From assembly GCA_013152585.1 (NCBI GenBank), contig JAADGC010000153.1:1-52017 (forward strand): a stretch of 52,017 bases of DNA, in the 5' to 3' direction. The notes beneath the pieces were generated by a model, which made no database searches, was not told the origin of the DNA, and worked only from the letters and a program-made list of their open reading frames with translations. Each line of letters begins with the position of its first letter. Within the stretch, counting starts at the first letter, position 1. Made by a program: the position numbers and the translations under genes. Shown here piece after piece: positions 5,001 to 45,259 of the stretch. This DNA is from Chloroflexota bacterium (GTDB lineage: Bacteria > Chloroflexota > Anaerolineae > J102).

Positions 5001-5148
5001 CGGCCGCTCCGGCCAGCGGCGCCGCCACACCGGGTTGCAACCCGCTGCTGAACATGAGCAGCAACAGGGCGGTGGTCAGTCCGGCCCAGAAGAGGCGCCG
5101 GAAGGGGTGGGCGGATGTTGAAGGCGCCGCAAGTGGATCAGGCCTCAT
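2008..5148 (-). CDS. Secreted protein with five cohesin-like modules, a choice-of-anchor U-like domain and an FN3-like domain
   Basis: Predicted exported scaffold-like protein of 1046 aa. A signal sequence covers about residues 15-45 (hydrophobic LTTALLLLMF). Five cohesin-like beta-sandwich modules of about 135 aa follow at roughly 49-182, 190-325, 336-467, 474-609 and 617-757. Each has the pattern F/YDPAVL, a Cys, 9-12 residues, then CysAsn (Ala in module 3), then K/R-F/L-N and a Gly-hydrophobic turn. Cys pairs are 100/113, 243/253, 385/398, 527/538 and 668/681. Residues 761-792 are Asp-rich TSP3-like calcium loops (DDDADGISSD), followed by a choice-of-anchor U-like domain (793-925), a Pro-rich linker, an FN3-like domain (943-1035) and the tail RLFWPGVVIKR. 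It is the last gene of the operon, 78 bp after the dockerin gene. No Shine-Dalgarno is obvious before the ATG. Family membership comes from motif reading; binding partners are inferred. Confidence 0.85.
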   Translation of the reverse strand: MRPDPLAAPSTSAHPFRRLFWAGLTTALLLLMFSSGLQPGVAAPLAGAAVLRVGDGRSVPYTLRSGDLITLPVTLSDAANVGTASAVIQFDPAVLRAVACEKAPGSAFGSGYCNLHFAANAVKFNALAAAGVNGEQPLYQITWQVYGPVGSHSNVAPTSAQLATPQGQALPVDTAGSQVDVVGGVAGEDGRVSIGESGHGPYVLRPGETLALSVTLAITGAHTLSALDLLLHYDPAVLHPRQCRIASPLMGTCNPNFDPDQGWIKLNLVSASGLHGIVPAFDIRFQAAPDASPGALSELEPVIDHATGAGGEPLYLLPAAGSITLGQPTGQTPHLWVGPPQGDGAFSTSMGITTTVPVWMSQVSDLGAAALNLSYDPAIVRAVGCRVRQDARLDWGVCALHGDHVRVSLISTQGISGDLPLFDLLLTPAVAATVGDSTPLTLTVRSFDDTAAIPLPVRTHPGSVTIDSGSGPGVALLRLGDAANGGQYDLPASAQIETAIRIEGATNLGAISIVLHYQPQVVQPLACSQNSAFGSGICNLQAGPGEIRLNAVSLGGVNGDLTLATVRWQAASSATPGDTSDIQLSPTTFADPSGHPLPVQTADGGIDIVPPAATGNELILRLGEGPGYITPGNSLTLPLIVAPGPGMALAAATFLLHYNPAVLQLQNCQIGAGNETFAGFCNPTFAPDQIKFNILSATGISEETQVATFTFTALALSGQRTQLGPAGQDAGLVLEAVYLATTGGHEPSATIQSWPLLVTGPDDDADGISSDIENNAPGNGDGNHDGIPDADQANVTSMPNAVDGSYITVVSPPGTSIENARALAAPLPQSLPVPIDFPQGVFSFALEGLTPGQSLTIKLILPPTGPVMHDYFKYGAEPGNPDPHWYHFAFDTHTGAEFRGDTILLHLTDGGRGDGDLLANGRIVDPGGPTRPTSATPPPSSEPGQLTATPQEKNVVVQWATTAGGETDGFVVWRALQASGPFQPVSQRIPAPDPDGANYRWKDSFLSPDTYWYLIETVSDGRLYGPVQAEVREMYRLFWPGVVIKR

Positions 5149-19889: not shown

Positions 19890-19945
19890 CTTATTATTCC
19901 TTGCCCTCACAGCGTGATATCGATCAGGGGTGTGCAAATGTCTCA

Positions 19946-30126: not shown

Positions 30127-30179
30127 CACCTCCAACCTTACGCCCAAATTCCTGGGACACACCCCAGCCAAAATCGGTA

Positions 30180-30208
30180 TTGACAAAGTAAACTAAATAC
30201 ACTATAAT
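30180..30208 (+). promoter_or_regulatory. Consensus sigma-70-type promoter of the acyl-CoA catabolic cluster
   Basis: TTGACA (30180-30185), a 17-bp spacer and TATAAT (30203-30208): a perfect match to both consensus boxes with ideal spacing. The expected start lies near 30215, with about 65 nt of leader before the first ligase gene. Confidence 0.85.
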
Positions 30209-30280
30209 AGTTTTATAGGATACTGCCGACAGGTGATGTCTCTTTCTTTTGCACACACAACGAAAAAGGTTCAGTGAACC

Positions 30281-31852
30281 ATGAATCATACAACTGTGGA
30301 TGAGTTGTACGACAACTGTGTCCGGTTCTATCGTTCAGAGGTGGCGCTCAAATATCATGACCGTACGTTTACGTATCAGAAGATGGGGGAAAACGCTGAC
30401 CGTCTGGCGAACGCATTGCACCACGTAGGCCTGCGGAAAGGGGACAAGGTCGCCTTTTTGATGGCGAATTGTCCGGAGTACGTCTTTGCCGAAATCGCTT
30501 TGACAAAGATCGGCGCCGTGCGTGTACCCCTCGCTGTTTTATTGGGCGCAGATGATCACATCTACATGATGAATCATTCCCAGAGCGTGACCCTCATCTA
30601 CCACGAAAAGCTGACATCACGGGTTGAAGCCATGATGCCGCATCTCAAGACGGTGCAGCACTTCATCTGCGTCTGCGACAATCCCACTCACGTACCCCTC
30701 GGGCACCTGCACTTGCAAACGCTCATGGCCGCGTACGCGCCGGAACCGCCGCCGGTCGAAATCGAACCCCAGGACTTGTGCGGTTTGTACTACACCGGTG
30801 GCACCACGGGCCGGCCCAAGGGTGTGATGTTATCCCATCGTGCCTGGGTGAATGCTGTGATGCTGGAGATGCTGGAGTTGGGGTTAGGCTGGGGGGAGGT
30901 GTTTGCCTACATGACGCCCTTGACACATGCCGGCGGTGTTCTGCTGTTGCCGGTGCTGTTGCGCAAAGGGCTTTGTCTGATTCTCGATGGCTTTGATGTC
31001 AAAACCTTCCTGGAACAGACCGAGAAAGAAAAGATCACCGCCTCTTTGTTTGTGCCCACCATGATCTATCTCCTGCTCGACTACCCCCAACTGGCCAACT
31101 ACGACACCAGCAGTCTGCACACCCTTCTCTACGGCGCCGCTCCCATCGCACCGGAACGGCTGAAGCAAGCCATCGATCATTTCGGGCCCATCTTCTCGCA
31201 GTTTTATGGACAGACCGAGTCACCGATGATCCTGACAGCACTGCCCCCCACCGAGCATGTCATTGCCGACCCCGAGCGCCAGCACCAGGTCTTCAGCTCT
31301 TGTGGGCGCCCCACCATGACGACGCAGATCAAACTGCTAGACACGGAAGGAGACGAGGTAGCACCTGGAGGGGTGGGCGAGATCGTCGCCCGCTCCACTT
31401 TTATGATGGATGGCTACTACAAAAACCCAGAAAAGACAGCCGAGACGATTCGGGATGGCTGGCTGTACACGGGCGACATGGCCCGGCAGGATGAACAAGG
31501 TTTTTTGTATATCGTCGATCGTTCCAAAGACATGATCGTCAGTGGAGGGTTCAATATCTACCCCCGCGAGATTGAAGATGTGCTGTTTGAGCACCAGGCA
31601 GTGAAGGAAGCGGCGGTGATCGGGGTGCCGGATGAAAAATGGGGAGAAGCCGTGAAGGCAATCGTCGTCTTGCACGAAGGACAGCAAACCACCGCTGCCG
31701 AGCTGATCGAGTTTGTCAAAGACCGCAAGGGCAGCCTCGTGGCTCCGAAATCAGTGGAATTCTGGGAGTCGATCCCCTTGACCAACCTGGGCAAGGTCGA
31801 TAAAAAGAAAATGCGAGAACCATTCTGGCGCGGCCACGATCGCCGGGTGTAG
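30281..31852 (+). CDS. AMP-forming acyl-CoA ligase, first gene of the catabolic cluster
   Basis: Activates a carboxylic acid to its CoA thioester with ATP. An ANL-superfamily protein of 523 aa. The AMP/ATP-binding P-loop is YYTGGTTGRPKGVMLSH at 171-187. FYGQTES, DGWLYTGDMA and DRSKDMIVSGGFNIYPREIE follow in the expected order, and the C-terminal catalytic lysine lies in NLGKVDKKKM. Closest by look to medium/long-chain fatty-acid or cyclic-acid ligases (FadD type); the substrate is unknown. It starts the plus-strand run of 14 genes and lies 72 bp after a consensus promoter. A hairpin separates it from the next ligase gene. The leader ATG at 30281 has only a weak AAGG-like ribosome site. Confidence 0.9.
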   Translation: MNHTTVDELYDNCVRFYRSEVALKYHDRTFTYQKMGENADRLANALHHVGLRKGDKVAFLMANCPEYVFAEIALTKIGAVRVPLAVLLGADDHIYMMNHSQSVTLIYHEKLTSRVEAMMPHLKTVQHFICVCDNPTHVPLGHLHLQTLMAAYAPEPPPVEIEPQDLCGLYYTGGTTGRPKGVMLSHRAWVNAVMLEMLELGLGWGEVFAYMTPLTHAGGVLLLPVLLRKGLCLILDGFDVKTFLEQTEKEKITASLFVPTMIYLLLDYPQLANYDTSSLHTLLYGAAPIAPERLKQAIDHFGPIFSQFYGQTESPMILTALPPTEHVIADPERQHQVFSSCGRPTMTTQIKLLDTEGDEVAPGGVGEIVARSTFMMDGYYKNPEKTAETIRDGWLYTGDMARQDEQGFLYIVDRSKDMIVSGGFNIYPREIEDVLFEHQAVKEAAVIGVPDEKWGEAVKAIVVLHEGQQTTAAELIEFVKDRKGSLVAPKSVEFWESIPLTNLGKVDKKKMREPFWRGHDRRV

Positions 31853-31891: not shown

Positions 31892-31958
31892 AAATTTCCT
31901 CTTATTTAGCCACCATTCCACACCATTCGGTAGTTCTCAACCCAAAGGAGGGGTGACC

Positions 31959-33644
31959 ATGATTCTCAGTTCCGCTGCACAAATTCGCGAGTACACAGAA
32001 AAAGGCTGGTGGGGCACAGACACCATCCTCGACCTTTTCCTGAAAGATGTCCAGGCCACGCCGGATGCCGTTGCCGTAGTCGATCCGCCCAATCGCGGCG
32101 ATTTGATCGCTGGCGCACCTCAGCGTCTGACCTACACCGAGCTGAAGGAGGCAACCGAGCGGCTGGCCGGGGCCATGGCAGAGGCCGGGCTCAGGCAAGA
32201 TGATGTTCTGATGGTGCAATTACCCAATATCGTGGAACTGGTAGCGATTTACCTCGCCGCCGCCCGTCTGGGAGTGATCGTCAGCCCGTTGCCCATGCAA
32301 TATCGCAGCCACGAATTACGACAATTGATGGCGCTTACCACACCCCGCGCATTCATCTCGACCATGGATTTTCATGGCTTCAACTATGTGGCTATGGTGC
32401 AGGAGCACCAGGCCGAGTTCCCCAGCTTGCAGTGGATTGCCGCCCTGGAAGCCGAAACACCCGATGGCGTTCTCTCGTTGACCCAGATGTTAAACACCCC
32501 CCTCGACGGCGCCGCGCCGCGGGCTGATGTCACCGCCAATGATATCTTCACCATTTGCTGGACGTCGGGCACCGAAGCTGCCCCCAAAGGCGTGCCCCGC
32601 AGCCACAATCACTGGATTTGGATATCCTACGCCTCCATCGACGGCTGTGAATTCGAGGCCGGGCACCATCTGCTGAACCCCTTTCCCCTGATCAACATGG
32701 CCGGCATCGGCGGCATGCTGGTTCCCTGGCTGCTCACCGGCGGCAAACTCGTGCTGCATCAGCCCTTTGATCTGCCCACCTATCTCAAGCAAATCGTCGT
32801 GGAGAAGATCAACTACACCGTAGCCCCACCCGCCTTGCTCAACATGCTGCTGATGCGGCCGGAAATCCTGGAAAAAGTGGACTTGAGTGCGATGAAAAAC
32901 ATCGGTTCCGGCTCTGCCCCCCTCTCGCCGTGGATGGTGACGCAGTGGCAGGAAAAATACGATCTCATCGTCATCAACATCTTCGGCTCGAATGAAGGCG
33001 CCTCGTTCACAAGCGGCCACAACGAATTCCCCGACCCCGCCATCCGTGCCCAGTACTTCCCCCGCTTCGGCGTACCCGAATATGTCTGGCCGTCGCGCGT
33101 TGCCGCCCAGATGTTGACCAAGCTGGTGGACCCGGCGTCCGGGCAGGAGATCACCGAGCCCGGCATTCCCGGCGAGTTGGCGATCAAGGGGCCCGGCATC
33201 TTCCCGGGCTACTACAAACGCCCCGATCTCACCGCCAAGGTATTCGATGAAGATGGCTATTTCTATACCGGCGATCTGTTCGAGATAGCCGGTGAGGGCG
33301 ACAAGCTCGACCGCTATCGCTTTGTGGGCCGCGTGAAAGACATCATCAATCGCGGTGGCGTCAAGATTTCGTCGGAGGAGATCGAAGGCTTGATCATGGG
33401 CCACCCGAAAGTGGCTGAGGTGGCCGTCGTCGGGTATCCCGATGAACGCATGGGCGAGAAACTCTGTGCGGTCGTTGCCGTCAAGCCGGGACAAAGCCTC
33501 ACCCTGCCGGAAATCGTGGACTATCTCAAGGCGAAGGACATCGCCGTGTTCAAATTACCGGAAAAGTTGCTTGTAGTCGATAGATTGCCCCGCAATCCCG
33601 TGGGGAAAGTCCTGAAGAGAACCCTGAGAGAGCAAGTGCGGTAA
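31959..33644 (+). CDS. AMP-dependent synthetase/ligase, second acid-activating enzyme
   Basis: ANL-superfamily acid-CoA ligase of 561 aa. The start at 31959 is chosen because AAGGAGG ends seven bases before it; an in-frame GTG lies two codons earlier. The P-loop region reads TICWTSGTEAAPKGVPRSHNHW split around the usual T/S-G-T-x-x-x-P-K-G-V. Further motifs are NIFGSNEG, GYFYTGDLFEI, GRVKDIINRGGVKISSEEIE, and the catalytic Lys in RNPVGKVLKRTLRE. The N-terminus (QIREYTEKGWWG) resembles aryl- and cyclic-acid ligases such as 2,3-dihydroxybenzoate-AMP ligase and cyclohexanecarboxylate-CoA ligase, so the acid may be cyclic or aromatic (inference). It ends two bases before the acyl-CoA dehydrogenase gene, so the two are co-transcribed. 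Confidence 0.9.
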   Translation: MILSSAAQIREYTEKGWWGTDTILDLFLKDVQATPDAVAVVDPPNRGDLIAGAPQRLTYTELKEATERLAGAMAEAGLRQDDVLMVQLPNIVELVAIYLAAARLGVIVSPLPMQYRSHELRQLMALTTPRAFISTMDFHGFNYVAMVQEHQAEFPSLQWIAALEAETPDGVLSLTQMLNTPLDGAAPRADVTANDIFTICWTSGTEAAPKGVPRSHNHWIWISYASIDGCEFEAGHHLLNPFPLINMAGIGGMLVPWLLTGGKLVLHQPFDLPTYLKQIVVEKINYTVAPPALLNMLLMRPEILEKVDLSAMKNIGSGSAPLSPWMVTQWQEKYDLIVINIFGSNEGASFTSGHNEFPDPAIRAQYFPRFGVPEYVWPSRVAAQMLTKLVDPASGQEITEPGIPGELAIKGPGIFPGYYKRPDLTAKVFDEDGYFYTGDLFEIAGEGDKLDRYRFVGRVKDIINRGGVKISSEEIEGLIMGHPKVAEVAVVGYPDERMGEKLCAVVAVKPGQSLTLPEIVDYLKAKDIAVFKLPEKLLVVDRLPRNPVGKVLKRTLREQVR

Positions 33645-33646
33645 CG

Positions 33647-34789
33647 ATGAATTTCAACCTCACGGACGAGCAATCCTTTATCCAGGCAACCATCCGTAAG
33701 TTTATGCGTCGGGAGTGCCCTCGCCCGCTAGCTCACGAGCTGGACGAACAAGGCGCATTTCCGGGTGACCCCCGGCAAAAACTGGCCCGGCTGGGATTCT
33801 GCAGCCTCACTGTGCCCGAAGCCTATGGTGGGGGAGGCCCCGATCTCGTGGCGGCCGCCATCGTCGTGGAGGAAATTGCCCGGCTGGCGCCCGTGCTGGC
33901 GGGCGCCTTCGCCAGCACGGCCCTGTACGGCGGTGAGGCCATCACCCTGCTGGGCAGCGCCGAGCAAAAACAGCGGCTTCTGCCGGCGGTGGCCGCGGAC
34001 GAACTCTCGTTCAGTCTGGCGCTGAACGAGCCTGCGGGCGACATGCCAACCACGGTTATCGCCCAGGGCGATGGCTATGTGCTGCAGGGGCGCAAGGCCT
34101 TTGTCAGCCTGGCAGACAGCGCCGATTATCTCCTGGTCCTGGCCCAAAGCGATGCCAACGGCGCCCAGTCTCTCTTCCTCGTCCCGGCGCAGGCCAGCGG
34201 CATCCGGCGTCAGGCCGTGGAGATGGTGGGGTATCACGGAATGGGCCTGTTTACAGTTGAGTTCGATCAGGTTCATGTGTCGGCAGACAAGCTGTTGGGC
34301 GGCGCCGAGGCCTGGCATCAGGGCAAGAATCAGGCCCGCATCTTGGGGACAATCGAGCATGTGGCACAGACAGCAATGGCACTTGGTATCGCCCAAGGTG
34401 CTTATGAATACACGCTCGGCTATGCGCAGGAGCGACGCCAATTCGGCCACGCCCTCGCCGACTTCGAGGCCATCCGGCACATGCTCGTCGATCTGGCAAT
34501 CGAAATCCAGGCCGTGCGTCTTATGCTCACTCAGGCCTGCTGGCAGGCTGATCAGGGGCGCCCGTTTGCCTTGGAGGCGGCCATGGCCCGGCTGCGGGCG
34601 GGCAAGCTGGCCCGGCAGGCGGGATTACAGGCTGTGCACATCCTGGGCGGATATGGCTACACGACCGAGTACGATGCCCAACGCGCTCTGAGAGACGCCC
34701 TGGTGCTTTTCTCCGGCAGTGAAACCCCGGCTCTGCTCAAGAACTCGATCGGCGATCTGTTAGCGCTGAGCTCGAATGGAGGATGCTAA
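33647..34789 (+). CDS. Acyl-CoA dehydrogenase family subunit lacking the catalytic Glu
   Basis: Flavoprotein-type subunit of 380 aa. The three ACAD domains are recognisable. FAD-contact motifs from the partner-facing side are kept (AQERRQFGHALADFEA and HILGGYGYTTEYDAQRALRD). The base position of the MCAD/SCAD type (YEGT) reads FSGSE, and the alternative IVD/LCAD-type position (ERL) reads NQARIL, so I find no catalytic Glu at either site. The middle domain also carries ALNEPAGDM in place of the usual TEPxAGSD. Together with the second dehydrogenase gene at 37042 this suggests a heteromeric alpha2beta2 enzyme in which this chain supplies FAD contacts and the other the base. It is packed between the ligase (2-bp gap) and the aldolase-like gene. 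Confidence 0.9.
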   Translation: MNFNLTDEQSFIQATIRKFMRRECPRPLAHELDEQGAFPGDPRQKLARLGFCSLTVPEAYGGGGPDLVAAAIVVEEIARLAPVLAGAFASTALYGGEAITLLGSAEQKQRLLPAVAADELSFSLALNEPAGDMPTTVIAQGDGYVLQGRKAFVSLADSADYLLVLAQSDANGAQSLFLVPAQASGIRRQAVEMVGYHGMGLFTVEFDQVHVSADKLLGGAEAWHQGKNQARILGTIEHVAQTAMALGIAQGAYEYTLGYAQERRQFGHALADFEAIRHMLVDLAIEIQAVRLMLTQACWQADQGRPFALEAAMARLRAGKLARQAGLQAVHILGGYGYTTEYDAQRALRDALVLFSGSETPALLKNSIGDLLALSSNGGC

Positions 34790-34793
34790 CGTT

Positions 34794-35975
34794 ATGGGCA
34801 CATTCAAAGGACAAGTGGCCATTGTGGGCATCGGGGAAGTGCCGACCGGACGTTTCCCCGAGCGCAGTGCTATTTATTGCGCTGTCAAAGCGGCGCAACT
34901 GGCCATTGCCGATGCCGGCCTGCACAAGGACGACATCGATACCGTCATCCCCACGACCGCTTTGTACAATGCCAAGTTCAACACCGACTTGGTGACAGGG
35001 CGCATTGTGGAGGAATTGGGGTTGCGCGTCAGAAACAATCTCCAGCTTTTCGCCGGTGGGGCGACCAGTGCCATCATGCTCAAAGTCGCGGCCGGGCTGA
35101 TCAGCACCGGCGTTTCCGACGCCATCCTTTTCGTCCATGCCGATAAACTGGGCAGCGGCGTTTCTGGCCAGGAAGGGATCGACCTGTTTTCGACGGCGGG
35201 GATTTCCAAAGAATGGGAAGTGCCCTACGGCTTGCACTATTCCGCCGTCGCCGGGCTGATCACGCAGCGCACCATGTATGAGACGGCTACGACGGCAGAA
35301 CAATTGGCCTCGGTGTGCGTTTCCAACCGCAAGTGGGCCCAGCTCAATCCCCTGGCCATGTTCCGCAAACCCCTGAGCATCGAGAAAGTTCTGAATTCGA
35401 AAATCCTCTCCTCCCCGCTCCATGCCTACGAGTCCAACATGTTGGCGGATGGCGGCGCCGCCTTTATCGTCACCTCGGCGCAGCGGGCGCGCACCCTCAG
35501 CGAGCGCCCGGCCTATCTGCTGGGAGAAGGATCCCGCGTCACCCACTTTGCGCTGTCGCAAGAACCCGACATGACCCGTTTCGGCTACGCGGCGGCAGCA
35601 GCCGACGCCTACGCCATGGCCGGTCTATCACCGGCTGATATCGATCTGGCCGAGCTCTACGATTCCTATCCCATCTTTCAACTGATCGCTTTGGAGGAAC
35701 TGGGCTTGTGTGCCCGCGGCGAGGCCGGGAGCTTTGTGCTGGCAGGTCACACCTGGCCGGGGGGAAAGCTGCCCATGACCACCAACGGCGGCATGCTCTC
35801 GCAGGGGCACACCGGCGCCGGTGGCGGCATCTCCATCTTGATAGAAGCCGCGCGGCAGTTGATGGGCAAAGCGGGCGAACGGCAGGTTCCCAATGCGCGC
35901 TTTGCCATCGAGACGGCCACAGGCGGCACCTATGTCGATGCCCATGTCACACTTTTAGGCAATGAAATTCCGTAA
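34794..35975 (+). CDS. Thiolase-fold protein without nucleophilic Cys, Ltp2-like retro-aldolase candidate
   Basis: A 393-aa protein of the SCP-x/Ltp2 branch of the thiolase superfamily. The ATG at 34794 follows GGAGG; an ATG at 34776 would overlap the upstream gene and lacks a ribosome site. Where thiolases have the nucleophile Cys (CxS/CxSG) this protein has LFAGGATSAIM, with no Cys. The C-terminal catalytic motif reads LAELYDSYPIFQ, a YDSY at 289-292, in place of HDCF of SCP-x thiolases, and NGGMLSQGHTGAGG replaces the NxxGG-GHP loop. This is the pattern described for steroid side-chain aldolases (Ltp2), which act with a DUF35 partner; that partner gene follows at 36151. Retro-aldol activity is inference; a DpgC-like or non-catalytic role cannot be excluded. 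Confidence 0.85.
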   Translation: MGTFKGQVAIVGIGEVPTGRFPERSAIYCAVKAAQLAIADAGLHKDDIDTVIPTTALYNAKFNTDLVTGRIVEELGLRVRNNLQLFAGGATSAIMLKVAAGLISTGVSDAILFVHADKLGSGVSGQEGIDLFSTAGISKEWEVPYGLHYSAVAGLITQRTMYETATTAEQLASVCVSNRKWAQLNPLAMFRKPLSIEKVLNSKILSSPLHAYESNMLADGGAAFIVTSAQRARTLSERPAYLLGEGSRVTHFALSQEPDMTRFGYAAAAADAYAMAGLSPADIDLAELYDSYPIFQLIALEELGLCARGEAGSFVLAGHTWPGGKLPMTTNGGMLSQGHTGAGGGISILIEAARQLMGKAGERQVPNARFAIETATGGTYVDAHVTLLGNEIP

Positions 35976-36022
35976 ATGGAATCTGGCGAAAATCACGTTG
36001 GCCGCGTAAGACGGCATTTTCA

Positions 36023-36100
36023 GCCACAGATTGCACGGATTCCCACAGATTTTCACTTGATTTTTTTGATTTTTCCGTGAAAATCCGTGTAATCCGTGGC
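36023..36100. repeat. Imperfect inverted repeat, MITE/REP-like
   Basis: Arms of about 34 bp (36023-36056 and 36067-36100) face each other around an AT-rich centre: GCCACAGATTGCACGGAT on the left, ATCCGTGTAATCCGTGGC on the right. The arms differ at several places. A partial homologue lies at 23691-23745. The 175-bp gap between the aldolase-like and DUF35 genes consists mostly of this element. Confidence 0.75.
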
Positions 36101-36150
36101 AAAAGCAAAAAACGCCAGTGTCCAGTTCCATAAGACACGCGAGGCACATC

Positions 36151-36555
36151 ATGCCAGCAAAACCACTTCCCCCCACTGATCCCTGGACAGAACCCTACTG
36201 GACCGCTGCTCGCCAGGGCAAGTTGCTGATTCAACGCTGTAAAACCTGCCACCACTATGTCTTTTACCCGCGCCTGGTCTGCCCTCATTGCGGCGCTGAC
36301 GCCCTCGCCTGGGTGGAAGCAACGGGCAAAGGGGTGATCTACACCTATTCGGTGGTCACCAACAACCCGCCTTCGGCGTTCATGGCCGACCTTCCCTTTG
36401 TCATCGCTGTGGTGCAGCTCGCAGAGGGCGTGCGCATGATGGCGAACATTGTCGATTGCGATTCTGCCGCCCTGCACTGCGACATGCCCGTGGAAGTAAC
36501 TTTTGAAGCACGCAGCGATGAAATCACACTGCCCCAGTTCAGGCCCCAGCGATGA
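36151..36555 (+). CDS. DUF35 zinc-ribbon and OB-fold protein, aldolase partner
   Basis: A 134-aa protein with a rubredoxin-like zinc ribbon (RCKTCHHYVFYPRLVCPHCG, Cys pairs CxxC and CxxC) and an OB fold (GKGVIYTYSVVTNNPPSAF onward). Such proteins bind and stabilise thiolase-fold enzymes and their acyl-CoA ligand; in mycobacteria the DUF35 part of ChsH2 does this for Ltp2. An earlier frame to 36118 begins in the repeat, so ATG at 36151 is used. The gene follows the thiolase-fold gene across the repeat element and precedes the MaoC gene, matching the ChsH arrangement but with the two domains encoded separately. Confidence 0.92.
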   Translation: MPAKPLPPTDPWTEPYWTAARQGKLLIQRCKTCHHYVFYPRLVCPHCGADALAWVEATGKGVIYTYSVVTNNPPSAFMADLPFVIAVVQLAEGVRMMANIVDCDSAALHCDMPVEVTFEARSDEITLPQFRPQR

Positions 36556-36591
36556 ACCGGCAGCCAGCCAAGCCCACACCAGGAGGAAACA

Positions 36592-37041
36592 ATGCCTGAA
36601 AAATACTGGGATGATTTTAGCGTAGGCGAAACCTTCGACAGTCCCGGCATCACCGTCACCGAAACCCATCTGGTCAACTGGGCGGGCCTGACAATGGATT
36701 TTTATCCCTTGCACATGAATGAGGAATACGCCCGCCACACGCCCTTTGGCGAGCGCATCGCCCACGGACCGTTGACCTTTGCCCTGGCGGTGGGCATGAT
36801 GGCAATGACCGGCGCTGCCAAGGACTCGGTCATCGCCTGGCTGGGCGTCGACAACATGCGCATACCGGCGCCGGTCAAAATCGGCGATACGATCAAGCTG
36901 CATGTCGAAGTGACAGAGATGCGACCCACCCGAAAACCCAGCCAGGGACTGACGACCATGCGCTACACCGTCAGCAACCAGCATCAGCAAATGGTGATGG
37001 TTTTCGATATGAAATTCTTAATGCACAAGCGAGCTTCCTGA
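36592..37041 (+). CDS. MaoC-family (R)-specific enoyl-CoA hydratase
   Basis: Adds water to an enoyl-CoA. Hot-dog-fold protein of 149 aa. The hydratase motif reads MDFYPLHMNEEYARHTPFG with the catalytic Asp and His (D-x4-H here) and the following IAHGPLTFALAVGMM. A strong GGAGGAAAC ribosome site precedes the ATG. Its stop is followed at once by the start of the second acyl-CoA dehydrogenase, a hallmark of linked expression. In the mycobacterial igr set the equivalent ChsH1 pairs with the MaoC half of ChsH2; here a single MaoC protein presumably acts as a homodimer or with a partner outside the window. Confidence 0.92.
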   Translation: MPEKYWDDFSVGETFDSPGITVTETHLVNWAGLTMDFYPLHMNEEYARHTPFGERIAHGPLTFALAVGMMAMTGAAKDSVIAWLGVDNMRIPAPVKIGDTIKLHVEVTEMRPTRKPSQGLTTMRYTVSNQHQQMVMVFDMKFLMHKRAS

Positions 37042-38205
37042 ATGTACACAACACCTCAAACCGGGACGCGACCAGGCCTGGACCAGGCTGCCATTCGCGC
37101 CACCGTACGAGATTTTGTCGAACGGGAAATCCCGCCAGATCGGGCCCGTGCCATCGACCAAAACGACGAATATCCGTCCGATCTCCTTGACAAATTCGGC
37201 CAGACGGGTTTGTGGGGGATCAATATCGCCGAGGAATACGGAGGACTGGGGGGGTGCCCGGTGGATGCCTTGCCGATTTACGAGGAATTATCGCGACGCC
37301 TGCCGGTGCTGGCGTGGGTGATCGGCAATATCTTGCTCTATGGCAACGACATCATCGGCAAAAGCGGCAGCCCTGAGCAAAAAGAGTACTACTTGCCACG
37401 TCTGGCGCAGGGTGAATTGCGCTTCAGTTTCGCCCTCACCGAGCCCAACGCCGGTTCCGATGCGGCCAAAATCAGCACCAAAGCCACCTTCAGGGAGGGG
37501 CACTACCTCATCACCGGTAGCAAGATGTTCATCACCGGCGCCGGGGTTAGCGACGTGGTGGTGACCATGACCCGCACCGCCCCCTCCAAATACCGGGGAA
37601 TCACCGCCTTCCTGGTGCCCACAGCCACCCCGGGGTACAGCACCAGCCACCTCAAAAAACTGGGCTATCAGGGGTCCGATACCTGCGCCGTGCATTACGA
37701 AGATGTCCAGGTGACCCCCAGCCACATACTGGGCGGCGAATCCTGTCTGAATCAGGGGTGGGGGCAGATGGTGAAGCTCTTGAACAGTGAACGCCTGGCC
37801 CTGGCATCCTGCTCGTTGGGCATCGGCCAGGCTGTCCTGGACGAAACCATCGCCTACGCCAAAGAACGCTTCCATCTGGCGCAAGGCCGCTGGCAACACC
37901 AGGCCATCCGCCACGCCTTGGTCGATATGGCCACCGAGCTGGAAGCTGCCCGGCACTTGACGTATCATGCCGCCCGCCTGGAGGGCGCCGGGATCGAGTG
38001 TGTACGGGAGACATCCATGGCCAAATACTTCGCTTCGGAGACGGCCAAAAAAATCGCCCTGCAGGGCGTCGAAATCCTGGGCAGAGACGGCGCCACCCTG
38101 GCGTTCGACTGCCAACGCGCTTTGCGCGATGTGCTGGTGCTGAGCATCGGCGGCGGCACCACGCAGATTCAGAAAAACATCGTCGCCAGGCAGATGGGGT
38201 TATAA
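37042..38205 (+). CDS. Acyl-CoA dehydrogenase family subunit with IVD/LCAD-type Glu
   Basis: A 387-aa ACAD. FSFALTEPNAGSDAAKIST and the substrate loop are kept. The MCAD-type base site reads IGGGTTQIQ (Gly in place of Glu), but the IVD/LCAD-type site LLNSERLALA keeps a Glu, so this chain can be the catalytic one. FAD-contact motifs that act on the neighbouring subunit are altered: AKERFHLAQGRW replaces RQFG, and EILGRDGATLAFD replaces LGGxGY. Losses here are complementary to those of the 33647 protein, which keeps the FAD motifs and lacks a base, as in the ChsE1/ChsE2 heteromers. It begins directly after the MaoC stop and is followed 6 bp later by the TetR gene. Confidence 0.92.
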   Translation: MYTTPQTGTRPGLDQAAIRATVRDFVEREIPPDRARAIDQNDEYPSDLLDKFGQTGLWGINIAEEYGGLGGCPVDALPIYEELSRRLPVLAWVIGNILLYGNDIIGKSGSPEQKEYYLPRLAQGELRFSFALTEPNAGSDAAKISTKATFREGHYLITGSKMFITGAGVSDVVVTMTRTAPSKYRGITAFLVPTATPGYSTSHLKKLGYQGSDTCAVHYEDVQVTPSHILGGESCLNQGWGQMVKLLNSERLALASCSLGIGQAVLDETIAYAKERFHLAQGRWQHQAIRHALVDMATELEAARHLTYHAARLEGAGIECVRETSMAKYFASETAKKIALQGVEILGRDGATLAFDCQRALRDVLVLSIGGGTTQIQKNIVARQMGL

Positions 38206-38211
38206 AAACCT

Positions 38212-38796
38212 ATGATGACACAGAATAAAAAGAAAAAGCAAAAGCAGATCCTCCAGGCGGCCAAAGAGATGTTTGGTCGCTATGGATTCCGTAAAACGAC
38301 CGTGGACGAGATCGCAGAACAGGCCGGCATCTCCAAGCGCACCATGTACAAGCTGTTTCACAGCAAAGTCACTCTGCTGGCCGATTTGGTCCTGGACGAA
38401 GCCCTGACCTTCCGCAGCCATTGCCTGGTCACGTTGCAACAGTACGAAGATCCGAGTGAGAAAGTACAGATGTTCTTCAAATTGAGCAACGCCTACTTTG
38501 ACGAGAATCCTTTTCTGGGGCGGGTCATGGCAGACGACGACCGCCTGTACACACCCTTTCTGGGCGACGAACTGCACTGGGTGGAAGAGGGCATCGAGAG
38601 CATTATGGCCGGCCTCCTGCGCCATGGGATCGAGAGCGGCGTTTTTCGGGATGAAGACTTCACGGCGACGTTGCAGTGCATGATGGTCTTGTTTTGCGAA
38701 TTTGCCTACCACCGTGGCTCTCGCCAAGACGGCAACGACGCCTGGATTTCGTTCATTTTACATGCTATCAGCCGCGACCCCACCGGCGAATCGTAA
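38212..38796 (+). CDS. TetR/AcrR-family transcriptional regulator
   Basis: DNA-binding regulator of 194 aa. The N-terminal helix-turn-helix is clear: FGRYGFRKTTVDEIAEQAG followed by ISKRTMYKLFHSK. The C-terminal ligand-binding part is helical and unassigned. It lies inside the plus-strand run, 6 bp after an acyl-CoA dehydrogenase and 88 bp before the SDR gene, so it is a good candidate for acyl-CoA-responsive repression of the cluster. No palindromic operator was identified with confidence. Start is the first of two adjacent ATGs; the second is also possible. Confidence 0.92.
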   Translation: MMTQNKKKKQKQILQAAKEMFGRYGFRKTTVDEIAEQAGISKRTMYKLFHSKVTLLADLVLDEALTFRSHCLVTLQQYEDPSEKVQMFFKLSNAYFDENPFLGRVMADDDRLYTPFLGDELHWVEEGIESIMAGLLRHGIESGVFRDEDFTATLQCMMVLFCEFAYHRGSRQDGNDAWISFILHAISRDPTGES

Positions 38797-38884: not shown

Positions 38885-39649
38885 ATGGATGTTTCTTATC
38901 TATCATTAGCAGGCAAGACCGCGCTGGTCACCGGCGGCAGTCGTGGTATTGGCCGCGCCATCGCCCTGGCGTTGGCCGATGCCGGCGCCGATGTGGCTAT
39001 CAGCAGCCGTAAGATGCCCGCCCTGCAGGAGGTTGCGACAGAAATCAAGGCGATGGGGCGCCGCGCTCTGCCGGTAGCCGCACACAACCGCAAGCCCGAG
39101 GCGTTGCGACAGCTCATGGCCACGGTGCAGGCGGCGTTTGGCCGTCTGGATATTCTGGTCAACAACGCTGCCACCAATCCGATTCTGGCGCCGCTGATAG
39201 ATGTCGAGGAAACAACCTTCGATGTGATCATGGACACCAATCTCAAAGGCTATTTCCTGCTTTCACAGATGGCCGCCAAGATAATGCTTGGCCAGGGCGG
39301 AGGCGTCATTCTCAACATCTCCTCGGTGGGAGGTGTCACACCCGACAAAGGCCTGGGCGTCTATTGCATCAGCAAAGCGGCCATCAATATGCTCACACAG
39401 GTGCTCGCCATCGAACTGGGAGAATACAACATTCGTGTCAACGCCCTCGCTCCCGGCGTGGTGAAGACGCGCTTCAGCCGGGCACTCTGGAGCAATGAGA
39501 AGATCATGGCCCAGGAGATGGCGCACACCCCCTTACAACGCATCGCCACGCCCGAAGAAGTGGGCAGAATGGCCCTGGCAATGGTCTCCGACGCTTCCGC
39601 CTACATCACCGGCCAGATAGTGGTCATGGATGGCGGCGGCTCCATCTAA
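38885..39649 (+). CDS. Short-chain dehydrogenase/reductase
   Basis: NAD(P)-dependent classical SDR of 254 aa. The ATG at 38885 is used: AAGGAG lies eight bases upstream and the sequence begins at a normal SDR N-terminus; the longer frame to 38702 overlaps the TetR gene. Coenzyme motif TGGSRGIGRAIA, LVNNAATNP, catalytic Ser in ISSVGG, and YCISK (Y-x3-K) are all present. The C-terminus DGGGSI is typical of the FabG-like group. It most likely oxidises or reduces a hydroxyl or keto group on the pathway substrate; the exact substrate cannot be read from the sequence. The next gene follows after 43 bp. Confidence 0.93.
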   Translation: MDVSYLSLAGKTALVTGGSRGIGRAIALALADAGADVAISSRKMPALQEVATEIKAMGRRALPVAAHNRKPEALRQLMATVQAAFGRLDILVNNAATNPILAPLIDVEETTFDVIMDTNLKGYFLLSQMAAKIMLGQGGGVILNISSVGGVTPDKGLGVYCISKAAINMLTQVLAIELGEYNIRVNALAPGVVKTRFSRALWSNEKIMAQEMAHTPLQRIATPEEVGRMALAMVSDASAYITGQIVVMDGGGSI

Positions 39650-39692
39650 TCCCGATCCCCGCAGGCGATCCACTCTTCAAGGGAGTATAACA

Positions 39693-41309
39693 ATGTCGAC
39701 TCACGATTATGATGCCATCATCATCGGCGCCGGCGTGGCCGGTTTGGCCACGGCGGCCCTCCTGGCCAAAGATTTCAATCAGAAGGTACTGGTGCTGGAA
39801 CAGGCCCCCTTTATTGGCGGTCGCACCCTTTCCTACGTGGGCCAAGGCCACAAGGTCGTGGCCGATGGCATCGAGATGGACGCCCAGCAGTTCCGTCGCT
39901 CATTGGCTTATGCCAGTTGCTATCTAGGCAAGTGTACGCCCGACATCGATACGATCTTTGCCAAGGGCCTGCTGGATGGCCGTACTTTCGAAGCTGGCGG
40001 CCACGGACTTTTTTGGGGCAACAAGAGCCGCACCCACTGCCTCCTCGACTATCTGGGTGAGTATGTGAGCATGCCGCTGAACCGCGGCCTGGGATTTATC
40101 CAGTGGCAGGGGGAGACAGAAGCAGGGCAGGTAGAACCCGGCGTCGTTTATCAGGTAGAAAAACGCACACCCTACCAATGGATGAGTCCCGAAGGCTTTG
40201 CCAAAACCATGGAGCAGTTGCGCGACATGGGCACGAGCACTTTCGCCGACATGGCCGGTCTCATGAAGACGTCGTTGCAAGAATGGCTAGACGCCCGCGG
40301 CATGCACCCCGAAGCCTACGAGTACATTAAAGTACTGGCGGCCTCGCAGACGGCGCAGGCCGAGCCGGCCATGACCCCGGCCGGCGACTTCCTGGGCTAC
40401 ATGGCCATCGCTCGCCCTATTCGCATGAACCTGATTTCCGGTTCGGTGGCGACGGCGGATGAACCGGGCTGCATTGCCATTCCCCAGGCTATGGAGCGCG
40501 TGGTGCTCGACCATGGCGGAGAAGTCCGCCGCAACACGCCTGTCACCGAAGTGATCATCGCCGACGGGCGGGCGCAGGGTGTACAGATCAAGGTCAACGG
40601 CGAATTGCAGACGCTCACGTCCACCACGGTTATTTGCACGATTCCGCCCAAACATATCTTCCGCGTATTAGCCAAAAACGCCTTCCCCGGCGACTGGGTG
40701 GAACTGCTGGAAACGAAATTCTGGGGCGCCGGCTTGCTGACCGGCTGGGCGGGCACCAAACGCAGTCTTTGGTCAGATATCGGTCTGGACGAGCGCAGTT
40801 TTGTCTACATGCCGGGCATCATTCGTGACGAGGGCTACATCGGCGCTGTCGATATGGTGATGTGCGAGTTCACGGCCTGGGGCGATCACAGCGCCAAACG
40901 AGCCCCGAAAGGCAAGTACGAATTTCTCTTTTCCACGGCACTGACCGACAACGAGATGCGCAACCCCGAGCGCGTCAACCGCGTGATCGAACTGTGCGAG
41001 AGCTGGGCCCGGGCCACCTTCCCCACCTGGGATGAAGATGTCGAGTTTTTGATTTGGACCCCGTCGCCGGAGGCCTACGGCCTGTGGCGGCCCATTGGCG
41101 AAGAACGCCCGGATGTGAAATCGCCCTGGGTCGACGGCCTGTACTTTGCCGGCGATCAATACGGCAAACGCCTGTGGGGTGGGGGTGTAGACGGGGCCTC
41201 GCTCTCAGCCGTACTGTGTGTCGACAACATGATGCACTCCCATCTCGAAGAAGCCATCTTCCCCGACTACCATCGCGGCCTCCCCGAGGTTGCCGACTCC
41301 GCCGCCTGA
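39693..41309 (+). CDS. FAD-dependent oxidoreductase, phytoene-desaturase/amine-oxidase-like
   Basis: A 538-aa flavoprotein. The ATG at 39693 follows AAGGGAG by seven bases. An N-terminal Rossmann motif (YDAIIIGAGVAGLATAALLA) binds the ADP part of FAD, followed by VLVLEQAPFIGGRTLSY (E/D plus GGR of the GR2 family). The C-terminal FAD motif is GLYFAGDQYGKRLWGGGVDGA. No transmembrane segment is obvious. Related proteins desaturate or oxidise polyisoprenoid, amine and steroid-like compounds. In this cluster a dehydrogenation of a cyclic or isoprenoid intermediate is plausible; the reaction is unknown. It sits between the SDR and the HpaB/AbfD-like gene with ordinary short gaps. Confidence 0.88.
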   Translation: MSTHDYDAIIIGAGVAGLATAALLAKDFNQKVLVLEQAPFIGGRTLSYVGQGHKVVADGIEMDAQQFRRSLAYASCYLGKCTPDIDTIFAKGLLDGRTFEAGGHGLFWGNKSRTHCLLDYLGEYVSMPLNRGLGFIQWQGETEAGQVEPGVVYQVEKRTPYQWMSPEGFAKTMEQLRDMGTSTFADMAGLMKTSLQEWLDARGMHPEAYEYIKVLAASQTAQAEPAMTPAGDFLGYMAIARPIRMNLISGSVATADEPGCIAIPQAMERVVLDHGGEVRRNTPVTEVIIADGRAQGVQIKVNGELQTLTSTTVICTIPPKHIFRVLAKNAFPGDWVELLETKFWGAGLLTGWAGTKRSLWSDIGLDERSFVYMPGIIRDEGYIGAVDMVMCEFTAWGDHSAKRAPKGKYEFLFSTALTDNEMRNPERVNRVIELCESWARATFPTWDEDVEFLIWTPSPEAYGLWRPIGEERPDVKSPWVDGLYFAGDQYGKRLWGGGVDGASLSAVLCVDNMMHSHLEEAIFPDYHRGLPEVADSAA

Positions 41310-41353: not shown

Positions 41354-42784
41354 GTGGCATTGAAAACCGCACAGGAATACAAAGATAGCCTGAAAGATGG
41401 CCGCGTTGTCTACTACAAAGGTGAACGGGTGGCGGATGTGACCACACATCCCGAGCTATCCGTGTGCGTTGACACCATGGCCCTGGATTACGAGATGGCG
41501 GAGAATCCCCGGTACCGTGATCTGGCCGTCGTCAGCGATGAAGCCTTGGGCGAAGACATCAGCCGCTACTATCATTTACCGCAAAATGGCGAAGATCTGC
41601 TCAAACTATTCGACTTGATCGTGGCCTCCACACGCCTGGGAGACGGCTTCATTCCCCTGGCCCACGACATCGGCGCCGACGCCCTCAACGCCATCAGCAT
41701 CACCGCCAACATCCTGGGCAACAGCGACTACATCGCCCGCATCGAGGCCTATCGCACCACTTTGAAAAAGAACGATCTGGCGGTGGTCACCGGCATGACC
41801 GATGTCAAAGGCGACCGCATGTTGCGGCCCTCTGATCCCGGGCAAGCGCATCCCGATTACTACGTGCGGGTGGTGGAGCGGCGGCGGGATGGCATCGTGG
41901 TGCGCGGCGCCAAGGTACACATCAGCGGGGCGCCGTACAGCAACGAGCTGTTCGTGATCCCCAGCCGGGCGATGACCGCGGCCGACGCAGATTACGCCGT
42001 GGCCTTCGCCATCCCCGTGAACACCCCAGGACTCAAGCAGGTGGGACGCCCCTTCCACGCCCACATCACATCTCTGGAATTTCCTAACAGCCGCCCCTTA
42101 CGCGTCCACACCGATTCTCTCATCATCTTCGACGACGTGTTCGTGCCCTGGGAACGGGTCTTTTTGTGCGGCGAATGGCAGGTTGCCGCCACACTGGTGG
42201 TCAACTTCGCCCTCCTGCACCGTCGCACCGGCTGCGCCTATCGCATCCCCATGTCGGAACAACTCTTGGGTGTGGCCAAAGCCATCGCCGAGTACAATGG
42301 CATCGCCAACGCCCCCCATGTGAAGGAAAAACTCACCGACATCGTCATCTATCTCGAAACCCTGCGCTCGCTCTCGCACGCCGCCTGTCTCGATTTTGTC
42401 ACCTACGGCGGCATCGCTGTGCCCAATCCCGTCAGCACCAACATCGCCAAGTATCATTTCGCCAACGAATACCACAAGGTGATCAAGATCATCCAGGACC
42501 TGGCGGGCGGGCTGCTGGTGACCGCACCCACCTTCAGAGATTACCAGTTGCCCGAATTGCAGGCCGATATCGCCAAATACCTGGGCGCCAAAGCAGACGT
42601 TCCCACCGAGCAGCGTCTGCGCATGTTGGATTTGATCCGCCGCATCACCGGCGCCGATCGGGAAACGATCGCCCTGCATGGCGAGGGCTCGTTGCAGGCA
42701 CAACGCATGACCATCCTCGCCGAAGCGCGAAAGACGATTGCCCAATGTCAGTTGATGGTAGAGGAGCAGGCCGAGATCGCATGA
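41354..42784 (+). CDS. HpaB/AbfD-superfamily protein without the [4Fe-4S] ligands
   Basis: A 476-aa protein with the 4-hydroxyphenylacetate 3-hydroxylase N- and C-terminal domains, the superfamily that contains FADH2-dependent monooxygenases (HpaB) and 4-hydroxybutyryl-CoA dehydratase (AbfD). ALKTAQEYKDSLKDGR at the N-terminus and HTDSLIIFDDVFVPWERVF are typical. AbfD holds its [4Fe-4S] cluster with Cys99, Cys103, His292 and Cys299. Here positions 99 and 103 are Phe and Ala (GDGFIPLAHDIGADAL), and the His289-Cys294 spacing differs. The AbfD reaction is thus unlikely and a flavin-dependent oxygenase or isomerase is favoured (inference). Its stop overlaps the next gene's ATG by four bases. A flavin reductase partner is not seen in the window. 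Confidence 0.88.
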   Translation: MALKTAQEYKDSLKDGRVVYYKGERVADVTTHPELSVCVDTMALDYEMAENPRYRDLAVVSDEALGEDISRYYHLPQNGEDLLKLFDLIVASTRLGDGFIPLAHDIGADALNAISITANILGNSDYIARIEAYRTTLKKNDLAVVTGMTDVKGDRMLRPSDPGQAHPDYYVRVVERRRDGIVVRGAKVHISGAPYSNELFVIPSRAMTAADADYAVAFAIPVNTPGLKQVGRPFHAHITSLEFPNSRPLRVHTDSLIIFDDVFVPWERVFLCGEWQVAATLVVNFALLHRRTGCAYRIPMSEQLLGVAKAIAEYNGIANAPHVKEKLTDIVIYLETLRSLSHAACLDFVTYGGIAVPNPVSTNIAKYHFANEYHKVIKIIQDLAGGLLVTAPTFRDYQLPELQADIAKYLGAKADVPTEQRLRMLDLIRRITGADRETIALHGEGSLQAQRMTILAEARKTIAQCQLMVEEQAEIA

Positions 42785-43674
42785 ATATCCGCACCGACTT
42801 CACCGAGATGCTGGGTATCGACGTCCCCATCGTGGGGGCACCCATGTTTCTGGTGAGCTATGAGGAATACGTGATCGCCCTCTCGGAGGCGGGCGCATTG
42901 GGCACATTTCCCCTGCCCAACTATCGCACGACGGCCGATCTCAAACAGGCATTGCAGACGATACGACAGGCGACCGGGCGGCCCATCGGGGTGAACATCC
43001 ATTTATCGGGTCGTTTTCCCTGGAAAGAGCAGTTGGGCATCTGCCTGGATGCGGGCGTCTCCTTCTACATCAGTTCGCTGGGCAACCCCGCCCTGATCCT
43101 GGACGACGTGCATGCCAACGGTGGCATCGTCTTTGCCGATGTGATCTCGTTGGCGCAGGGCTTGAAGGCGCGTGAGCACGGCGTCGATGGCCTGATTGCC
43201 GTGGCCGCCGGCGCCGGCGGGCATTGCGGAATGCTCCCCACCCTGATTTTTACCCCCTATCTGCGGCAACACACCGGACTGCCGGTGATTGCCGCCGGCG
43301 GCATCAGCACCGGCGCCCAATTGGCCGCCGCTCTGGCCGTGGGCGCTTGCGCGGCGATCGTCGGCACCCGCCTGATCGCCACCCACGAAGCGCGGGCGGC
43401 CCCGGCTTACAAGCAGGCGGTCATCGTCGCCCACCCCGAAGATATCGTCATCAGCAACGAAATTACCGGCACCCCGGCGACATGGCTGTCCAGCAGCATC
43501 GCCGATTTCGACGAACAGCCAGCCCCGCAATCGAAGCGCTGGCGTGATCTGTGGAGCGCCGGGCTCAGCGTGGCCCAGATCGACCAGATCAAACCGGTGG
43601 GGGAGGTGATAGAGGAAATGGTTCAGACATACACGCAAACCTGTCAGCATCTATCTCAAACCATCCACCCATAG
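42781..43674 (+). CDS. Nitronate monooxygenase-like FMN protein
   Basis: A TIM-barrel flavoprotein of 297 aa related to 2-nitropropane dioxygenase. Signature parts are IVGAPMFLVSYEEYV, GGIVFADVISL, LIAVAAGAGGHCG and VIAAGGISTGAQLAAALAVG, with the FMN phosphate site. Start at 42781 is chosen for the four-base ATGA overlap with the HpaB/AbfD-like gene; a longer in-frame extension to 42166 is a shadow of that gene. Proteins of this family in acyl-CoA clusters often act as oxidoreductases on unsaturated or activated acids rather than on nitroalkanes. Coupling to the upstream gene hints that it may serve the same step. Confidence 0.9.
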   Translation: MNIRTDFTEMLGIDVPIVGAPMFLVSYEEYVIALSEAGALGTFPLPNYRTTADLKQALQTIRQATGRPIGVNIHLSGRFPWKEQLGICLDAGVSFYISSLGNPALILDDVHANGGIVFADVISLAQGLKAREHGVDGLIAVAAGAGGHCGMLPTLIFTPYLRQHTGLPVIAAGGISTGAQLAAALAVGACAAIVGTRLIATHEARAAPAYKQAVIVAHPEDIVISNEITGTPATWLSSSIADFDEQPAPQSKRWRDLWSAGLSVAQIDQIKPVGEVIEEMVQTYTQTCQHLSQTIHP

Positions 43675-44042: not shown

Positions 44043-45251
44043 ATGACCAACGAAGCCTATATTTTCGATGCTATCCGCACACCGCGTGGTCGCGGGAAGG
44101 CGAGTGGCTCTCTTTACGAAGTTAAACCGGTGGACTTGCTGACGACCCTGTTGCGGGCAATGCAGGGGCGTCACGATCTCGACACGGCCCAGGTAGAAGA
44201 CCTCATCCTGGGCTGCGTCACGCCCATCGGCGATCAGGGGGGCAATATCGCCCGCACCGCTGTCCTCTATGCCGATTGGGACACGAGTGTCCCCGGTATG
44301 CAAATCAATCGCTTCTGTGCGTCTGGCCTGGAGGCAGTGAACCTGGCGGCGATGAAGGTGCGCTCCGGCTGGGCCGATCTGGTGGCCGCTGGCGGCGTGG
44401 AGTCGATGTCGCGAGTGCCCATCGGCACCGACGGCGGCGCCCTCTCCCAAGACCCGGCGGTGAGTATGCACGTGGGTTTTGTGCCACAGGGCATCAGCGC
44501 CGACCTGATCGCCACTATCGAAGGCTTCAGCCGCACAGATATCGATGCCTTCGCCCTCAATTCGCAAGAACGCGCCGCCCATGCCTGTAAGCAGGGCTAT
44601 TTTAAATCGTTGGTCCCGGTCAAGGACCAGAACGGCCTCACCATTCTTGATCACGATGAGCATATCCGCCCCAATAGCACGCCGGAGGGCTTGGGCAAGC
44701 TCAGGCCAGCCTTTGCCGCCATGGGCGAGATGGGCTTCGACGCCGTGGCCCTGCAAAAATATCCGCAGGTCGAGCGCATCCACCATATCCACACTGCCGG
44801 CAATTCCTCCGGCATCGTCGATGGGGCTGCCTTACTGCTGCTCGGATCAGAAGCAGCGGGGAGGGCGCAGGGCCTGAAACCGCGCGCCCGCATGGTCTCC
44901 GCAGCCCTGGTGGGCAGCGAACCCACGATCATGCTCACGGGCCCGGGCCCGGCCTCGCGCAAAGCCTTGCGCAAAGCCGGCATGACCATCGACGATATCG
45001 ACTTGGTCGAGGTCAACGAAGCTTTCGCGGCCGTGGTGCTGCGCTTCATGCGGGATATGGGCCTTTATAGCCTCGACAAGATCAATGTCAATGGCGGCGC
45101 TATCGCCATGGGACATCCCCTGGGCGCCACCGGCGGCATGTTGCTGGGCACGGCCCTGGACGAACTGGAACGACGAAATCTGACAACCGCCCTGATCACG
45201 CTTTGCATCGGCGGCGGCATGGGCATAGCGACCATTATCGAACGCGTGTGA
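44043..45251 (+). CDS. Acetyl-CoA acetyltransferase (thiolase)
   Basis: Cleaves 3-oxoacyl-CoA in the last step of a beta-oxidation round. A canonical 402-aa thiolase: nucleophile Cys92 in [26 protein letters not shown] with the catalytic His, and the second Cys in [12 protein letters not shown]. The start at 44043 with a GGAG ribosome site is preferred to a frame reaching back to 43950. The FadB-type gene begins 8 bp after its stop, the usual thiolase and multifunctional-enzyme pair, though here the order is beta then alpha. Unlike the thiolase-fold protein at 34794, all catalytic residues are present. Confidence 0.95.
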
Positions 45252-45259
45252 GGAATCAA

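Follow-up and report, generated by a model that had tools for sequence, protein, structure and literature searches.

A gene cassette of igr-like content in a Chloroflexota genome is part of an anaerobe-centered, apparently mobile pathway module

Thiolase-fold aldolases with DUF35 partners have so far been characterized mainly in aerobic steroid degraders. The closest described gene sets are the igr operon of Mycobacterium tuberculosis (ChsE1-ChsE2, ChsH1-ChsH2, Ltp2) and ORF40-44 of Comamonas, which share a pair of acyl-coenzyme A (CoA) dehydrogenases (ACADs), a MaoC hydratase, and a thiolase-fold aldolase with DUF35; in both, MaoC and DUF35 are fused as ChsH2, and the separately expressed domains are also functional (PMC12502768). 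In the aldolases TcLtp2 and CtSal, the catalytic base is the Tyr of a YDxY/YDxF-type motif (PMC12329534). Here, we describe a five-gene cassette (ACAD, thiolase-fold protein, DUF35, MaoC, ACAD; 33647-38205, all on the + strand) in contig JAADGC010000153.1 of the Chloroflexota bacterium assembly GCA_013152585.1, of which positions 1 to 52,017 were analyzed (the window). The host genome comprises 3.8 Mb in 251 contigs and is 96% complete.

An earlier note on this DNA had likened the cassette to igr, and the gene order that it gave was borne out, as were two acid-CoA ligase genes, both AMP-binding, ahead of the cassette. The FadB-type enzyme and the thiolase that it placed downstream are present, but five genes (for a TetR regulator, an SDR oxidoreductase, fadox, hpaB, and nmo) intervene. 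The cassette lies within 14 co-directional + strand genes (~30.3-47.4 kb) in the order lig1, lig2, acad1, ald, duf35, maoc, acad2, tetR, sdr, fadox, hpaB, nmo, thl, fadB, which may be transcribed as a single unit. What the earlier reading overlooked is this larger, horizontally spread, apparently mainly anaerobic module around the cassette. An igr-like cassette outside Actinobacteria is not new in itself, as Comamonas has one (PMC12502768); what is new is a pathway module that centers on anaerobes, appears to be mobile, and includes two families of unstudied flavoproteins. We found no description of it in the open-access literature searched. Our working hypothesis, to which we give moderate confidence, is that the cassette forms the core of a catabolic operon that has spread horizontally and probably works without oxygen on a hydrophobic carboxylic acid. 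The features of the block are the following.

30158-30213, + strand: candidate promoter (TTGACA, 17 bases, TATAAT) overlapping the palindrome AAACTA-N12-TAGTTT; start of the -35 box approximate
30281-31852, + strand: lig1, acyl-CoA ligase of the long-chain fatty acid-CoA ligase type (PF00501; NCBIfam PRK06187 over cut-off)
31953-33644, + strand: lig2, adenylate-forming (AMP-binding) ligase (from solved relatives and profiles)
33647-34789, + strand: acad1, degenerate ACAD homologue (catalytic Glu and flavin adenine dinucleotide (FAD) motif not kept)
34776-35975, + strand: ald, thiolase-fold, aldolase-type protein (YDSY, His345, without catalytic Cys)
36118-36555, + strand: duf35, DUF35 protein with C4 zinc ribbon and OB fold, ChsH2-type (PF12172, PF01796)
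36592-37041, + strand: maoc, single-domain MaoC enoyl-CoA hydratase (PF01575; MDFYPLH)
37042-38205, + strand: acad2, ACAD with isovaleryl-type Glu (NSER) and intact FAD motif
38212-38796, + strand: tetR, TetR-family regulator (PF00440)
38888-39649, + strand: sdr, SDR oxidoreductase (PF13561)
39690-41309, + strand: fadox, rare CrtI/amine-oxidase-like flavoprotein (profile and fold matches)
41354-42784, + strand: hpaB, member of the HpaB/4-hydroxybutyryl-CoA dehydratase family (4Fe4S Cys ligands replaced, His kept)
42781-43674, + strand: nmo, NMO/FabK-like flavin mononucleotide (FMN) enzyme (PF03060; TIGR03151 below cut-off; best solved relatives FabK)
44043-45251, + strand: thl, ordinary thiolase (NCBIfam PRK08242 over cut-off; CASG and CxGGGxG present)
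45203-47389, + strand: fadB, FadB/FadJ-type enoyl-CoA hydratase/3-hydroxyacyl-CoA dehydrogenase (limits of the open reading frame; the true start probably lies downstream of the frame's start)

Distribution of the module

Two further Chloroflexota genomes, G079 (loci L117 and L118) and that of locus L032, carry all 14 genes without any change of order, fadB of L032 being cut by the locus end. Eight core genes (ald, duf35, maoc, acad2, hpaB, fadox, nmo, and lig2) were present in shuffled order in three metagenome-assembled genomes (MAGs), namely a Desulfovirgula MAG of the Bacillota (L033), an Actinomycetota MAG (L034), and a Desulfatibacillum MAG (L035), and further Desulfatibacillum relatives hold partial sets (L131, L133, L135, L137). 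In one Desulfatibacillum relative, hpaB has a FadL/TodX transporter gene as its neighbor. None of the 12 window genes that flank the block was found in the related loci. Besides the window, an ald orthologue was detected in one of 249 sampled genomes of the class, a member of the same family (83% identity), and was absent from the sampled genome of the same genus. Beyond the window, fadox was found in two of 400 genomes of the phylum, at ~31% identity and both times without the module, and in eight of 291 genomes of the Desulfatibacillum class; it had no plasmid match. In five of these eight, hpaB lies directly beside fadox (68-69% identity), accompanied by acad2 and sdr in four and by more of the module in two (L133 and L135); of the remaining three, one is the genome of L035 itself and two are short contigs. 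Because the flanks are not shared, ald and fadox are patchily distributed, and the same genes recur in distant phyla, these data point to horizontal transfer of the module as a functional unit.

The same data bear on a simpler explanation, i.e., a chance gathering of ordinary genes for beta-oxidation of branched- or long-chain fatty acids. Some of the genes would suit it, in that thl and lig1 score over the cut-offs of ordinary families and fadB is of the normal FadB/FadJ type; however, the same unusual genes are co-located in several phyla while their order changes, indicating that the grouping is not due to chance, and the rarity of fadox in the phylum also speaks against it. We consider this explanation extremely improbable.

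With respect to oxygen, searches of the window genome and of those of L033, L034, and L035 detected neither COX1 nor cytochrome bd, and the L032 genome contains only a sub-threshold COX1 fragment. Module carriers are, judging from these gene inventories, probably mainly, not exclusively, anaerobes.

The thiolase-fold protein and its cassette partners

In ald, the nucleophilic Cys of thiolases is replaced by Gly-Gly (FAGGATS), the motif YDSY stands where thiolases have HDxF, and the second catalytic Cys is absent. Gly-Gly is kept in every member of the ald clade and YDxY in most of them, the two most distant having YGAY and YIAY. The lack of the thiolase nucleophile and the Tyr in a YDxF-type motif are traits shared with Ltp2-type aldolases; in contrast to TcLtp2, ald lacks the second catalytic Tyr (Tyr344), with which its His345 aligns in the alignment with 6ok1, and its Ser297 corresponds to TcLtp2 His296. 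Sal-Shy of Comamonas testosteroni (9myr), the second-best solved relative, shares the Tyr of the YDxY motif (YDCY in Sal) and the DUF35 partner, whereas the module has Ser for the catalytic Cys304 and His for Gln352, a C4 rather than a C3H1 zinc finger, and a DUF35 protein that is not fused to MaoC. The best solved match is 4u4e, an uncharacterized protein of Sphaerobacter thermophilus, with 222 bits compared with 175 bits for CtSal (9myr) and 157 bits for TcLtp2 (6ok1). 4u4e (motif YDSF) and PRK06158-like proteins share Gly-Gly in place of Cys and the retained His; unlike ald, to which they are ~37-41% identical, they form a large separate clade.

In a tree of 112 proteins, ald belongs to a separate clade with a support of 100 and a long stem, which is placed on the Sal/Ltp2 side and away from the Cys-containing thiolases. 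Approximately unbiased (AU) tests in a smaller, more careful analysis rejected none of the alternative placements, joining of the ald clade to Ltp2, Sal, and thiolases giving p-AU values of 0.24, 0.26, and 0.42, respectively. Similarly, the AlphaFold model of ald (predicted local distance difference test score, pLDDT, 86.5) matched 9myr and 6ok1 in Foldseek, but thiolases and acyltransferases equally well, and therefore does not discriminate. Because the deep position of ald is not fixed by the trees, the argument for an aldolase rests on the residues, which at their level do not bear out the true thiolase that would have refuted the earlier note and make an aldolase rather than a thiolase well supported. 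A true thiolase was rejected because both the nucleophilic and the second Cys are missing, and orthology to igr is not supported, given the better matches to 4u4e and CtSal than to TcLtp2 and the separate clade.

We also considered that the cassette might be biosynthetic, with ald as a member of the thiolase superfamily that, like PhlABC, catalyzes a different reaction (condensation, decarboxylation, or acyl transfer). The equally good fold matches to thiolases and acyltransferases and the retention of His345 at the position of the thiolase His would be compatible with such an enzyme; however, the nucleophilic Cys on which thiolases depend is missing from ald, the accompanying genes (two for ligases, two for ACADs, maoc, fadB, and thl) form a degradative set, and a TetR gene lies within the operon. 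On balance, we regard this alternative as unlikely.

Homologues of ald also occur in other settings. An aerobic relative, the cluster L112:5303-26752 on a Rhizobium etli megaplasmid, combines an ald homologue (50%) with genes for DUF35, P450, hydantoinase-type proteins, and a CoA transferase. The hydantoinase genes were considered as a ketone carboxylase, but their best score was to caprolactamase and below the cut-off, and they were not counted as a sign that the product is a ketone. On a Rhodococcus plasmid (L113:10329-13580), genes for an ACAD, MaoC, an ald homologue, and a zinc-ribbon protein lie in a row, adjoined by P450 and ferredoxin genes.

Among the partners of ald, the two ACADs differ from each other. 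acad2 has the isovaleryl-type Glu (N-x-E-R) and an intact FAD motif in nine of nine copies inspected (window, L032, L033, L034, L035, L131, L133, L135, and L137), with the Glu of L034 in a slightly different setting. In acad1 (inspected in the window, L003, L032, L036, L035, L133, and L135), neither catalytic position holds a conserved Glu, and the TEPxAGSD FAD motif is gone; of these copies, only that of the window has a Glu close to the isovaleryl-type position. The window and G079 copies of acad1 are 49% identical, compared with 62-84% for the other cassette enzymes. This asymmetry is what would be expected of a heteromer, as in igr, with acad2 as the probable catalytic subunit and acad1 as the probable non-catalytic partner. 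The sequences are not close to the steroid heteromer 6wy8 or to 4x28: acad1 and acad2 score 179 and 259 bits, respectively, to ordinary ACADs versus ~96 and 115 bits to 6wy8. Because they are nearer to ordinary ACADs, kinship with igr is not supported. MaoC retains both hydratase-2 motif residues, Asp and His. duf35 adjoins ald, its best solved relatives are TcChsH2-DUF35 and CtShy-DUF35, and its product is the expected partner of ald; duf35 and maoc are separate single-domain genes, with no ChsH2-type fusion. In the modules of two anaerobes, an HMG-CoA-synthase-like protein fused to DUF35 is encoded beside a thiolase-like protein (L033:6181-8991, L133:6845-9785).

These comparisons allow the similarity to igr to be narrowed. 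Gene content, an asymmetric ACAD pair, and the probable sequence of dehydrogenation, hydration, and retro-aldol cleavage, three steps that are probably the same as those of igr and Comamonas ORF40-44, stand; descent from igr is unsupported by the ald and ACAD matches. Among the substrates put forward earlier, a steroid (sterol or bile acid) is not supported: in the window genome, KshA was not found, matches to HsaA and KstD were far below cut-off, and no terminal oxidase was detected. Aerobic steroid ring degradation is, therefore, not indicated in this genome, while anaerobic steroid routes are only partly excluded, by a check for the consensus of CtmAB/delta-24 desaturase, which is absent. 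True igr-type side-chain degradation of sterols or bile acids in Chloroflexota would account for the equal cassette content, the relation of ald and DUF35 to TcLtp2/ChsH2 and CtSal/Shy, and the asymmetric ACAD pair, and Comamonas documents that low identity to igr is compatible with this function (PMC12502768). Nevertheless, it appears quite improbable to us because the module differs from igr in its separate DUF35 and single MaoC, its non-steroid-like ACADs, an ald with YDSY and His345 in a clade grouped with neither Ltp2 nor Sal (the AU tests rejecting neither), conserved partners foreign to igr (hpaB, fadox, and nmo), carriers mostly without detected oxidases, and no detected steroid-ring genes. 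The module would also caution against inferring steroid degradation from the genes of such a cassette alone.

Extra flavoproteins and the proposed pathway

Two unusual flavoproteins, hpaB and fadox, always accompany the cassette in the module. The best solved relative of hpaB is 4-hydroxybutyryl-CoA dehydratase (AbfD, 1u8v; 235 bits), the 4Fe4S cluster of which has the ligands Cys99, Cys103, His292, and Cys299. The three Cys ligands are replaced and the His is kept in 11 of 11 module copies inspected; because just the His remains, we rejected hpaB as a 4-hydroxybutyryl-CoA dehydratase. An HpaB two-component phenol monooxygenase was likewise rejected, with a score of 205 bits against a curated cut-off of 480 and most carriers lacking detected terminal oxidases. 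For fadox, the structural model is of low confidence (pLDDT 63), and its fold matches are general only (phytoene-desaturase/amine-oxidase). CtmAB limonene dehydrogenase and delta-24 steroid desaturase are phytoene-desaturase-like enzymes of a size similar to fadox that are used without oxygen, and they have the covalent-FMN consensus G-F-L/R-X-N/S-T/L-H-A (PMC11061730). A pattern search found this consensus in none of the five fadox proteins examined, and membership in this group was therefore rejected, the separation being by this consensus pattern. A second, shorter CrtI-like flavoprotein, ~20% identical to fadox, is encoded beside sdr in three loci (L131:3323-4795, L135:11999-13333, L137:9682-11073).

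Flavoproteins of this kind raise the possibility that the operon serves anaerobes in the breakdown of terpenoid acids, whether cyclic or acyclic. In such a pathway, ald would free acetyl-CoA from a beta-methyl-branched acyl-CoA to leave a methyl ketone, and desaturation or rearrangement of the terpenoid would fall to the flavoproteins. Terpenoids are substrates of CrtI-like flavoproteins, CtmAB of anaerobic limonene metabolism has a phytoene-dehydrogenase domain structure (PMC4109377), and the second CrtI-like gene recurs in several Desulfatibacillum-related copies. Without the covalent-flavin consensus in fadox, and with no terpenoid-specific gene found beside the modules, we consider this pathway rather unlikely.

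Returning to our working hypothesis of a catabolic operon for a hydrophobic acid, from gene content and residues we infer a substrate in which the beta-carbon is branched or in a ring, thereby blocking ordinary beta-oxidation. lig1 and lig2 would form the CoA ester; the closest solved relatives of lig2 are salicylate/dihydroxybenzoate AMP ligases, and its best profiles include cyclohexanecarboxylate-CoA ligase, but score below cut-off. We counted this likeness to ligases of aryl and alicyclic acids in favor of the hypothesis. acad2, with the degenerate acad1 as structural partner, would form the 2,3-enoyl-CoA, to which MaoC would add water, giving a tertiary 3-hydroxyacyl-CoA. A putative complex of ald and DUF35 would split this product by a retro-aldol reaction into acetyl- or propionyl-CoA and a ketone or aldehyde, with Tyr295 of ald as the base and His345 or Ser297 as the second acid/oxyanion residue. 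The SDR, fadox, hpaB, and the FabK-like nmo may process the ring or ketone product, and thiolase and FadB may complete the final beta-oxidation.

Several observations weigh against this hypothesis. No substrate or activity is known for the module, and the retro-aldol step is deduced from residues and homology; His345 and Ser297 are unlike both characterized aldolases, such that ald may instead catalyze some other reaction on a CoA ester, and the AU tests also allow the ald clade to be placed beside Ltp2, Sal, or thiolases. acad1 was not found in L033 and L034, and in L133 a thiolase-motif protein replaces ald while the rest of the cassette is present. The Chloroflexi bin with L036 (G619) has both COX1 and cytochrome bd. 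Finally, several carriers are metagenome bins that may contain misplaced contigs, although misbinning of single MAG contigs is an unlikely explanation of so many arrangements.

A more specific version, which we put forward only tentatively, is that the module encodes an undescribed oxygen-independent pathway for recalcitrant alicyclic or polycyclic carboxylic acids. In this pathway, retro-aldol cleavage of the igr-like kind would be coupled to two flavoenzymes that are new, an Fe-S-free relative of 4-hydroxybutyryl-CoA dehydratase and a CrtI-like desaturase acting on a CoA ester or cyclic ketone, and the pathway would have passed between Chloroflexota, Bacillota, Actinomycetota, and sulfate-reducing bacteria. 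The operon as such would take the chemistry of aldolases with DUF35 partners to anaerobes and to non-steroid substrates, and fadox next to hpaB would be a marker for the pathway in sediments, reservoirs, and wastewater. The module would also provide the two flavoprotein families for assay.

Regulation and neighboring genes

Upstream of lig1, a promoter close to consensus overlaps the palindrome, and both are kept in the window, L117, L032, and L036. The palindrome occupies 30190-30213, and the next site found by its matrix in the window scores less than half as high. We suggest that it is a candidate TetR operator that may be bound by the TetR protein of the operon.

Elsewhere in the window, a - strand open reading frame at 6588-19949 encodes 4453 amino acids, and a cohesin-domain protein is encoded nearby (2008-5148).

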